Assembly: GCA_903887325.1 (NCBI GenBank)
Contig: CAISPG010000008.1
Location: forward strand, 1 to 48,144
Reading direction: 5' to 3'
DNA: 48,144 nucleotides
Origin: an uncultured Burkholderiales bacterium
GTDB lineage: Bacteria > Pseudomonadota > Gammaproteobacteria > Burkholderiales > Burkholderiaceae_C
Below the pieces are notes generated by a model. The model ran no database searches, was not told the origin of the DNA, and saw only the letters and a list, made by a program, of their open reading frames with translations. Positions 25,850-29,187 of the stretch are shown in pieces; position 1 is the first letter of the stretch, and each line of letters begins with the position of its first letter. A program made the position numbers and the translations under genes.

Positions 25850-26512
25850 TTATTGCAACAAATCAGCAATCGCTATGTGCCCCGCGTCTTTGGCCATGTC
25901 CGCCGCGCTCAATCCTCTGTCGTCTTTCAACTGTTTTTGCGCGCCTTTGGCCAGCAGCAGTTTGACGGTATCTGCGTGTCCTTGTCCGGCCGCCCACATC
26001 AGCGGCGTGAGCCCGTCAGCGTAAGCGGCATCTGTCAATGCGCCTGCCTTCAGCAGTTGCTCGACAACACCTGTGTGCCCCATGCCGGCAGAGTAGACCA
26101 GGGCCGACTTGTGCAGACGGTCTTGCACTTCAAGTTTGGCACCTTTGTCCAGCAACAGTCCAACTATCTCCGCGTTGCCCGCATAGGCGGCCGCAATCAA
26201 AGGCGTGACTTTCTCCAACGAAGCCAGGTTCACATCGGCACCGGCGGTCAGCATCGTCCGCACAATGGCGATCTGGTTTTTTTCAATGCCCATAAAAAGC
26301 GCGGTCTTGCCTTCGCGGTTGCGTGAGTTCGGCGAAGCGCCTCGGTCCAGGCTTTTTTGTATGCCATCCATATCAACTTGGCGGGCCGCCACCAGCAACT
26401 GTGCATTGACAGATTGGTGCGGACTGATTTGTGCAGCAACCGGCATACACAAGCTGGCAAACAAAGCGAATCCAATAGTAAACAATTTGAGAAATAAAGT
26501 CTGTTTTGGCAT
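25850..26512 (-). CDS. Secreted ankyrin repeat protein
   Basis: A 220-residue protein with a signal peptide (LFLKLFTIGFALFASLCMPVAAQ) and five or six ankyrin repeats that fill the rest: for instance REGKTALFMGIEKNQIAIVRTMLTAGADVN, KVTPLIAAAYAGNAEIVGLLLDKGA, ADGLTPLMWAAGQGHADTVKLLLAKGA. Ankyrin repeats are protein-binding scaffolds; a periplasmic location is inferred from the signal. Relatives are often found beside catalases or dehydrogenases but no partner is proved. ATG 26510-26512 is chosen; a TTG two codons upstream is also in frame. It is divergent from the PQQ dehydrogenase gene, sharing a 260-base promoter region. Confidence 0.85.
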   Translation of the reverse strand: MPKQTLFLKLFTIGFALFASLCMPVAAQISPHQSVNAQLLVAARQVDMDGIQKSLDRGASPNSRNREGKTALFMGIEKNQIAIVRTMLTAGADVNLASLEKVTPLIAAAYAGNAEIVGLLLDKGAKLEVQDRLHKSALVYSAGMGHTGVVEQLLKAGALTDAAYADGLTPLMWAAGQGHADTVKLLLAKGAQKQLKDDRGLSAADMAKDAGHIAIADLLQ

Positions 26513-26772
26513 GATCAATGGGCTGTGAAAGTAAAAAGCTTAGGCTGTTGAAATCTTAAGGGTTTTCCCTTGTCGAATGTTTCAAACTGGTGCAAATCCA
26601 TACTGCATGGTTAAGATGAGACATGGGAATTTTTCCTTGACGGTAATTCGTGTTCTCACAGCACAAGGTTATCTCAAGTTGAATACCCAGACTTCTGGAC
26701 ACGGATTGAAAGAGTTTTATTTTCATTTCTATCTGGTTTTTCAATCATTGCCGCAAGGCATAAGGAGCACAA
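26513..26772. other. Divergent intergenic region between ankyrin and PQQ dehydrogenase genes
   Basis: Holds no gene. AT-rich, with a palindrome AAGGG-TTTT-CCCTT near 26557-26570 and a strong AGGAG ribosome binding site just before the PQQ dehydrogenase ATG. TTGACG (about 26637) and TTGAAA (about 26706) are possible -35 boxes, but no convincing -10 partner was found. A regulator of the dehydrogenase could bind the palindrome; this is only a suggestion from symmetry. Confidence 0.35.
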
Positions 26773-28446
26773 ATGCACAAATTTGGAAAGAAAATTTCCC
26801 AAACCATCGCCTGCGTCGCAGTCGGTGTTTTGTCAGCTGGGTTCGCCCAGGCGGATGTCAGCCAGGCACAACTGAATGCGGCTGACAAAGACGGTAACAA
26901 CTTTTTGCACTCCAATGCAAATTACGCCAACAGCCGTTATTACGCTGCCAAGCAAATCACTACCGCTAACGTAGCCTCACTGCGTCCTGCTTTCACATTC
27001 CAGACCGAAGTTCTGGAATCCATGGAAACAGCACCCATCGTTGTTGATGGCACCATGTACATCACCACTTCTTACAACCACGTGTACGCCATTGACCCTG
27101 TCACCGGCAAGCAAAAGTGGCATTACAAACACAAAATGGGTCCGGTCACGACTTATTGCTGCGGCCCTAACAACCGCGGTGTCGCCATCTCCGGCGGCCA
27201 TGTGTTCATGGGTACCCTGGACGCCAAACTGGTCGCTCTGGACGCCAAAACCGGCAAGCTGGTTTGGGACACACAGATTGCTGATCCCGAGTTGGGCTAT
27301 TCAGAAACCATGGCACCAGTGGCTGTCAACGGCCGCATCCTGATCGGTACCAACGGCGGCGAATACGGCATCCGCGGTTTCGTCAAATCTTTTGATGCCA
27401 AAGACGGCAAGCTCCAGTGGACTTTCTACACCATTCCGGAAAAAGGCCATGAAGGCGTCTGGGCTGTGAACGATGCCAGCGGCCGCAACATGCACCGCGA
27501 TATTGCTGCAGAAAAAGACCAACTCGCCAAACACGGCGGTGACTTCTACAAAACCCTGGGCGGCGGCGTGTGGATGACACCTGCAGTTGACCTGGAAAGC
27601 AACACTGCATTCTTCGTGGTCGGTAACCCCAGCCCCGATTTGTACGGTGCTGAGCGTCCTGGAGACAACCTGTACACAGACTCCATCGTCGCGGTTGACC
27701 TGAACACCGGTAAGTACAAGTGGCACTACCAGTACGTTGCTCACGATTTGTGGGACGTTGACGCCGTGTCTCCTGTCATCCTGACAGAAGCCAAGGGCAA
27801 AGACGGCAAGATGGTCAAAGTGGCTATCCACGGCGGCAAAACTGGTTTTGTGTATGTCCACGACCGCGCCACCGGCGAGCTGATCCGTTTGTCTGAGCCC
27901 ATGGTGCCAATCGACGGCATGTGGACCCTGCCTACCAAAGAAGGCGCCAAGATGATGTTGGGTGCTAACGGTGGTGTGGAATGGAGCCCGATGGCTATCA
28001 ATCCTGAAACCCGTATGGTGTATGCCGCTAACCTGCTGCAACCCATGACTTACCACGTCGAAGCTTCCAAGTACCCTGGTGGCAAGCTGTGGTTGGGCGG
28101 TGCTTTCAAAACCATCCCTAGCGAAAAGCAATCCGGCCGTTTGTCTGCTGTCAATCTTGACACCGGCAAAGTGGCATGGAAATTCGACACTGACGAGCCT
28201 TTGATCGGCGGCGTGCTGGCTACTGCCGGCGGCCTGGTGTTCAACGGTGAAGCCAATGGCTTGTTCCGCGCATTCGATGCCAAGAACGGCAAGAAACTGT
28301 GGGAATACCAGACTGGCGCAGGCGTGAATGCACCTGCCGTGTCTTACACAGTGGGCGGAAAGCAGTACATTGCAGTGGCAGCTGGTGGTAACAACCAGAT
28401 CGATGCCAAGCGCGGCAATTCAGTAGTGGTGTTCGCACTGCCCTGA
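26773..28446 (+). CDS. PQQ-dependent alcohol dehydrogenase with lanthanide-type Asp
   Basis: A 557-residue periplasmic quinoprotein of the methanol/ethanol dehydrogenase family, oxidising alcohols and reducing a cytochrome c. It has a signal peptide ending at residue ~27 ([11 protein letters not shown]), repeated tryptophan-docking motifs of an eight-bladed propeller ([32 protein letters not shown]), and the adjacent Cys129-Cys130 pair that forms the vicinal disulfide over PQQ. Expected metal and catalytic residues are Glu197 (GGEYGIRG), Asn285 (VGNPSPDL) and Asp328 in W-D-V-D. Asp330, two residues after the catalytic Asp, is the extra ligand found in lanthanide-dependent XoxF and PedH; calcium enzymes have Ala, Ser or Thr there. 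No heme domain is fused. A di-heme cytochrome gene follows. No pqq biosynthesis or xoxJ-like gene is in the window. Confidence 0.92.
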
Positions 28447-28525: not shown

Positions 28526-29104
28526 ATGAAACTCTTCTCACTCTTTTCTTCTGTTGCAATGCTTGTGCTGTTGTCTTTTATGCCTGCGCTGGCTCAAGCT
28601 CAAGCGCCTGAGAAAGCCGCAACCTGTATGGCATGCCATGGTCCAAACGGCAATTCCAGCATGCCCAATACGCCGAGCCTGGCCGGGCAAAACGCCCGCT
28701 ATATTTATTTGCAATTGCGTGATTTTCAGGAAGGCCGCCGTCACAACGACATGATGACGCCTATGACCGCCGGTTTGACCCGCGACGACATGCGCGAAAT
28801 CGCCGACTTCTTTTCTAAACAAACACTCACCAGCAAGAATTTCAATTCAGACCCTGACAAAGCCAAAAAAGGTTTTGCCAAGGCGGATGAAACCCTGTGC
28901 GCCATGTGCCACCTAGGCGAGTTCAAAGGACAAAACGAAATCCCCAAGGTGGCGGGTCAAAATTATGATTACGTGATCAAAACCCTGAAGGATTTCAAAG
29001 CCAAAAACCGCACCAACGATGCAGGCAATATGACCAGCGTGGCCAGCACTTTGAGTGATGAAGACATTGAAAATTTGGGCCATTACATTGCCGGGTTGAA
29101 CTGA
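28526..29104 (+). CDS. Di-heme cytochrome c (c4-like), probable electron acceptor of the PQQ dehydrogenase
   Basis: A 192-residue protein with a signal peptide (MLVLLSFMPALAQAQA) and two heme c sites, C-M-A-C-H at residues 34-38 and C-A-M-C-H at 125-129, one per half. Likely axial Met residues lie in MTPMTAGL and GNMTSVAS. The c4-type layout (NSSMPNTPSLAGQNARYIYLQLRDFQEG) fits a soluble or loosely bound periplasmic electron carrier. Placement right after the PQQ dehydrogenase suggests it takes its electrons, as XoxG or cytochrome c550 do in other systems, though those are mono-heme. It differs in sequence from the other c4 protein at 34.6 kb. Confidence 0.88.
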   Translation: MKLFSLFSSVAMLVLLSFMPALAQAQAPEKAATCMACHGPNGNSSMPNTPSLAGQNARYIYLQLRDFQEGRRHNDMMTPMTAGLTRDDMREIADFFSKQTLTSKNFNSDPDKAKKGFAKADETLCAMCHLGEFKGQNEIPKVAGQNYDYVIKTLKDFKAKNRTNDAGNMTSVASTLSDEDIENLGHYIAGLN

Positions 29105-29149
29105 CTGTCATTCCCCGTGCGGTGTCTTTGATACCGCTTTGTTTCCATC

Positions 29150-29187
29150 AAAAAAAACCTTGTGCATTCACTGCACAAGGCTTTTTT
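29150..29187. terminator. Bidirectional terminator between cytochrome c and metK
   Basis: CCTTGTGCA (29158-29166) and TGCACAAGG (29172-29180) make a perfect 9-base stem with a TTCAC loop. An A-run precedes it (29150-29157) and a T-run follows (29182-29187), so it works on both strands and ends both the cytochrome c transcript and metK. Confidence 0.9.

Follow-up and report, generated by a model that had tools for sequence, protein, structure and literature searches.

Lanthanide-dependent PQQ alcohol dehydrogenases are mostly known from the oxidation of methanol (XoxF) and of ethanol (PedH/ExaF). XoxJ has its role within the XoxFGJ system, and the partner of PedH is a c550 cytochrome. The metal ligands of PedH are Glu199, Asn281, Asp323 and Asp325 (PMC11845868, Table 1). 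The window analysed here, the whole stretch of 48,144 nucleotides from an uncultured Burkholderiales bacterium, contains a gene for a PQQ-dependent alcohol dehydrogenase (ADH) with the same four ligands, the C-C pair, the Trp and the fold of PedH/ExaF (6zcv/6zcw). The two proteins are 36.8% identical and, unlike PedH, ADH is flanked by genes for a cytochrome with two CxxCH motifs and an ankyrin-repeat protein. The Glu, Asn, Asp, Asp ligand set is also shared with XoxF1, XoxF2 and XoxF5 (6oc5, 4mae and 6dam), at 32-34% identity. Judged from sequence, ADH is probably an active periplasmic Ln3+/PQQ alcohol dehydrogenase from a branch of its own, which in these searches was commonest in the Burkholderiales, with the adjacent cytochrome and ankyrin protein as its partners. 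The family extends the lanthanide ligand set from the methanol and ethanol enzymes to this branch.

The dehydrogenase gene and its metal site

The ADH open reading frame (26773..28446, forward strand) encodes 557 aa, comprising a signal-peptide-like start (identified by eye) and a PQQ propeller that we take to be eight-bladed. The start codon is ATG, with AAGGAG (ribosome-binding-like) on its 5' side. The protein scored 478.7 bits against TIGR03075 over residues 26-538 of 557, marginally below the curated cut-off of 480.05, and on sequence grounds appears clearly homologous to that model. The divergent intergenic region that separates it from the ankyrin gene (26519..26772) contained one promoter-like match on the forward strand (26696-26723); the number of such matches in the region was not above shuffle expectation. 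At Rfam gathering thresholds, the sole match in the whole window was one tRNA.

Translation of the frame placed C129, C130, E197, N285, D328, V329 and D330 at the residue numbers given in the first-pass annotation. The codons for Asp328-Val329-Asp330 were calculated from the frame start and residue numbers as 27754..27762 (forward strand), with the assigned roles of catalytic base, Leu/Val spacer and lanthanide-type Asp. The best match among PDB chains was PedH (6zcv; phmmer, E 5e-92), in which E197 was paired with Glu199, N285 with Asn281, D328 with Asp323 and D330 with Asp325. D330 was aligned with PedH Asp325 and XoxF Asp301/Asp320; a displacement from the XoxF Asp320 position, on which the annotation had staked its lanthanide reading, was not found. 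In the joint alignment this column was Asp in XoxF1, XoxF2, XoxF5 and PedH (4/4 lanthanide-type references). The six calcium-type references had other residues there: both MxaF sequences Ala, ExaA Ser and the three quinohaemoprotein ADHs Thr, as had been claimed of Ala, Ser or Thr at this place. ADH therefore carries the feature that defines the lanthanide type, a second Asp two residues past the catalytic Asp. The flank, said to have changed from GVNE to AVSP, indeed read A-V-S-P in ADH and G-V-N-E in PedH.

An AlphaFold model of ADH was built with 43 alignment rows and had a mean pLDDT of 84.5 and a pTM of 0.88. Its top Foldseek match was PedH 6zcv (TM 0.82, but with an rmsd of 7.0), followed by 6zcw and, in third place, XoxF 6dam.

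Homologues were collected by a contig scan of genomes using search peptides that excluded the motif, and the best 80 of 171 coding stretches were used (69-97% identity in the best segment). Residues C129, C130, S177, E178, T179, E197, W267, N285, D328, D330, S333, K356 and E403 were identical in 80/80. This set includes the Glu/Asn/Asp metal and catalytic residues, the vicinal Cys pair and the Trp of TIGR03075-type enzymes, and since the ligands, W267 and the Cys pair are invariant the motif is not a product of chance. The annotation was right that the residue between the two Asps is Val here and non-aromatic; it is not the family's usual residue, however, which is Leu in 77/80 homologues with Val in 3/80. 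Position 334 was Pro in 79/80 and Ala in 1/80. Ligand and catalytic residues were also kept in the deeper members L097-L100, and the sequence of L101 ends before the Cys pair.

Six methanol/ethanol-type PQQ dehydrogenases were found in the source genome (2.47 Mb), and all six have Asp at the lanthanide position, so the genome may depend on rare earths for alcohol oxidation of this kind. The other five (L091-L093, L095 and L096, or L146-L150; contigs C21, C132, C86, C48 and C125) read WDYD, WDWD, YDFD, WDFD and WDFD, respectively. In those of C132, C48 and C125, the vicinal Cys pair is missing from its usual position.

Phylogenetic position and family signature

IQ-TREE trees were made from 65 and 33 rows, in which XoxF was represented by labelled rows of XoxF1, XoxF2 and XoxF5 only. 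The ADH family formed a single clade (100/100), as did XoxF/MxaF, PedH/ExaA and the quinohaemoprotein ADHs, each separately and each at 100/100. The suggestion that ADH is a distinct branch and no standard XoxF was thus borne out by the phylogeny proposed with it, the family lying outside the XoxF/MxaF clade. XoxF membership was rejected on this placement, together with the two CxxCH motifs of nearly all adjacent cytochromes and the lack of XoxJ-like neighbours: two XoxJ-like (TIGR03871-type) queries gave no match across the 80 loci of the family, whose flanks were covered to 6 kb at most and in some cases less. Identity between the two queries is just 25%, and a strongly diverged XoxJ might therefore have escaped detection. 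An AU test rejected the joining of the family to PedH/ExaA with the sister rows left outside (p-AU 1.09e-60). When family and sister rows were joined together to PedH/ExaA (0.117), XoxF/MxaF (0.105) or the quinohaemoprotein ADHs (0.369) none was rejected, so that each of these deep placements of the family is compatible with the data. No description of the clade was found in partial coverage of the literature on lanthanide PQQ alcohol dehydrogenases and Burkholderiales; a name may exist in print.

ADH was 30-37% identical to the references. Among labelled and own-genome rows its highest identity was to the C132 paralogue (40.0%); two rows from outside the family, L102 and L103, reached 40%. 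C132 (WDWD) resembles ADH in the Asp at the lanthanide column, but differs in lacking the vicinal Cys pair, in carrying Arg at 356 and Asp at 403, and in its long loop, and lies outside the clade. The quinohaemoprotein ADHs (1kv9, 1yiq and 1kb0) share Lys at 356 and approximately 37% identity with ADH, but have Thr at 330 and G-N-G in place of the G-N-P of ADH, and fall in their own clade; ADH also ends without a haem domain. Nearest to the family among the outside rows were L102, whose W-D-Y-D looks active, plus L103-L106 and L109 with Gly at both the E197 and D328 columns. Catalysis therefore seems to have been lost nearby, though outside the ADH family. The five Gly-bearing proteins (regions L140-L145) are quinoprotein-like, keep the second Asp and, from these residues, are probably non-catalytic; at least one of them (L145) has a lipobox-like start (by eye).

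The family signature consists of S-E178-T, K356, E403 and a shortened loop. The E178 column is Ile, Met, Asn or Leu in the ten references, and the E403 column is Asn or Asp. The K356 column is Arg in XoxF, MxaF, PedH and ExaA, and Lys in the three quinohaemoprotein references and the own-genome paralogues C48 and C125. The loop between 356 and 404 has 47 residues in 80/80 family members, compared with 59-71 in the ten references (12-24 shorter in the family) and 59-79 in the five paralogues. In PedH it has 67 residues; PedH further differs in having Phe between the two Asps (Val/Leu in the family), Arg for Lys356 and Asn for Glu403. The assignment of residues as PQQ contacts, or as near PQQ, is our assumption, and we likewise take the 356-404 loop to lie by the active site. 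Given that placement, its shortening suggests that the pocket may be more open and that a bulkier or non-methanol alcohol would be favoured. A different alcohol substrate is plausible on the basis of the shortened loop, Glu403 and Lys356.

That ADH is a calcium-dependent PQQ alcohol dehydrogenase merely carrying Asp330 is unlikely, given Ala, Ser or Thr in 6/6 calcium-type references, Asp in 4/4 lanthanide-type references and Asp in 80/80 family members. On the side of calcium stand the unusual family residues near PQQ, Lys356 and Glu403, and a precedent. In PMC10409515, a PedE-type enzyme without the extra Asp is reported to keep 60-80% activity with lanthanides present, and to that extent sequence-to-metal rules are not absolute. 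We consider it very unlikely that ADH is a member or direct sister of PedH/ExaF, as a fast-evolving copy of the known lanthanide ethanol dehydrogenase. Of the solved structures, PedH matched it best in both sequence and fold, and the joining of family and sister rows to PedH/ExaA was not rejected; ADH is nevertheless no closer to PedH than to the quinohaemoprotein ADHs, and the two differ in their gene neighbours, in the length of the loop and in residues around PQQ. Membership of PedH/ExaF was rejected on the 100/100 pairing of PedH with ExaA and the rejected joining of the family, without its sister rows, to that pair. That ADH is an "empty" quinoprotein without catalysis, as some of its nearest relatives seem to be, is hardly credible. 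Such a reading is brought to mind by the Gly residues of L103-L106 and L109, and by a match of ADH to TIGR04528 (acido-empty-quinoprotein) at 335.7 bits. The cut-off of that model is 650 bits, however, and it is matched as well or better by three of the four other own-genome dehydrogenases tested. The candidate was rejected on the conserved residues of the ADH family, whose members (80/80) show no change at any ligand or at the catalytic Asp. Dependence of ADH on a lanthanide is the reading we prefer, and we infer it strongly, on the grounds that ADH has the second Asp and that all six dehydrogenases of the genome share it.

Cytochrome and ankyrin neighbours

A c-type cytochrome gene lies downstream of ADH (28526..29104, forward strand). 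It encodes 192 aa with CxxCH at residues 34 and 125 and a signal-peptide-like start (by eye); "c4-like" is our own label for this protein. The closest NCBIfam model was PdsA (periplasmic diheme shuttle), at 78.8 bits far below the cut-off of 330. A relative of the cytochrome was directly downstream of ADH on the same strand in 78/80 loci, and in the remaining two (L014 and L086) the contigs end 167 and 44 bases past ADH. Two CxxCH motifs were present in 77 of these 78 proteins and one in the other. The cytochrome is likely to be the electron acceptor of ADH. Past it come two hairpins that resemble terminators and have T tails (29119-29137 and 29158-29180, forward strand); the region contained 6 such hairpins, not clearly above the 4.0 (sd 1.8) of shuffled sequence.

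The ankyrin-repeat protein gene (25850..26518, reverse strand) is divergent from ADH and encodes approximately 220 aa with a signal-peptide-like start (by eye). Its coordinates were counted from a TTG; there is an ATG two codons into the frame. An ankyrin relative adjoins ADH in 77/80 loci, at a distance of 211-896 bases. The gene was divergent and upstream in 58 of the 77 loci, and co-directional and downstream, after the cytochrome, in 19. A third order, convergent and downstream, was seen in Alloyangia and the deeper members L136 and L138. The ankyrin gene was missing from L034 (none within 6 kb) and from L051 and L086, both short contigs. The conserved cytochrome and ankyrin neighbours were absent from the first-pass annotation and are, in our view, the most unusual part of the locus.

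The ADH family was found in 20/200 sampled genomes of the same order (E 1e-180), 16/61 relatives (E 1e-150) and 6/274 class-level genomes (at least 65% identity), the source genome being included in each count. Named relatives of ADH are Burkholderiales. All 19 matches of the order-level search outside the source genome were fetched; 5 were contigs already counted and 14 were further loci, 12 with the cytochrome and 12 with the ankyrin gene. The exceptions were L187 (no downstream sequence), L197 (neither partner) and L199 (no ankyrin gene). Among deeper members, L135, L136 and L138 had both partners and L137 had neither (1.65 kb downstream covered). Plasmid records with the family at 60% identity or more numbered 14, including one alphaproteobacterial, and four were inspected. 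Those of Ideonella and Caballeronia had both partners, the Alloyangia pacifica plasmid (alphaproteobacterium, 65% identity) had ADH-cytochrome plus the convergent ankyrin gene, and the Paraburkholderia sprentiae plasmid (L154) had neither cytochrome nor ankyrin gene.

This linkage suggests that the ankyrin protein is likely a dedicated partner of ADH. It would be exported and would serve ADH or the cytochrome specifically, in assembly, docking or protection, possibly in XoxJ's place, and is a concrete candidate for the periplasmic assembly or protection of such enzymes. A fuller version is tentative and on the whole improbable: that it is an obligate periplasmic third component in XoxJ's place, loading or activating the Ln-PQQ enzyme and docking the diheme cytochrome, in a separate lanthanide ADH branch with its own substrate. 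Ankyrin proteins also adjoin catalase genes, as AnkB does beside the catalase KatB in Pseudomonas aeruginosa. With such neighbours known, the protein could instead be a general periplasmic stress protein and no partner of the dehydrogenase, a possibility we take seriously while thinking it the less likely. Its divergent orientation in 58/77 loci agrees with that possibility, as the gene is there not in one transcript with ADH. Retention beside ADH in 77/80 loci, through three gene orders, argues against it. So does the result that no ankyrin relative was found around the five other PQQ dehydrogenases of the genome (5.9-11 kb regions; the C48 contig ends just upstream). Ank_2 was found at two places in the whole 2.47-Mb genome. 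A literature search found no paper on an ankyrin-PQQ link.

Proposed reaction, PQQ genes and other neighbours

In the proposed mechanism, Glu197, Asn285, Asp328 and Asp330 would hold Ln3+ on PQQ and Asp328 would act as the catalytic base. Lys356 and Glu403 stand where XoxF and PedH have Arg and Asn/Asp, and C129-C130 would lie by PQQ. The adjacent diheme c-type cytochrome would take up the electrons released as the alcohol is oxidized to the aldehyde and deliver them to the respiratory chain. PqqB, PqqC and PqqE of the source genome scored above curated cut-offs.

Genes of the type found in the PQQ-dependent alcohol ABC system (TIGR03863, TIGR03866 and a CXXCW protein) adjoin some family loci. 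A TIGR03866-type propeller relative was present in the fetched flanks of 27/80 loci by tblastn, and in 20 by clustering; two such proteins scored 172.0 and 283.2, both under the cut-off of 287.3. A TIGR03863-like binding protein was present in 3/80 loci, and one scored 377.9 bits against a cut-off of 413.6. On the Alloyangia plasmid the ADH-cytochrome-ankyrin genes sit in a fuller cluster, with ABC genes (three for substrate-binding proteins, one for an ATPase), a PQQ-associated propeller gene and a gene for a CXXCW protein around them. The window's own genome gave no match to TIGR03866. metK and a lipid A acyltransferase gene were considered as functional partners and rejected; they are present only in closer relatives and were therefore taken as lineage synteny.

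Elsewhere in the genome, a XoxJ-like protein is encoded next to each of the C21 and C125 dehydrogenases; against TIGR03871 the two scored 114.9 and 59 bits, short of the cut-off of 212. That on C21 (L147:2769-3902, reverse strand) adjoins the WDYD dehydrogenase and is an apparent J-cytochrome fusion, in which a XoxJ-like domain (TIGR03871-type, residues 31-250) is joined to a cytochrome c domain (residues 262-377) with a weak match to PedF c550.

In a Comamonas MAG, the genes that come after the ADH-cytochrome module are NuoEF-like and formate dehydrogenase alpha (L078:8706-13404), hinting at a route to formate in that organism. A TonB-dependent receptor is encoded near the module in Cupriavidus (L049:1407-3710), with relatives in 9/80 family loci. 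No NCBIfam model matched it above cut-off (PqqU, 85.3 of 1200 bits), and it is possible that it is a receptor for a metallophore (lanthanophore) or for PQQ. The source genome also has a reading frame for a TonB-dependent receptor that contains a single internal TAG (L158; C41:23340-24965).
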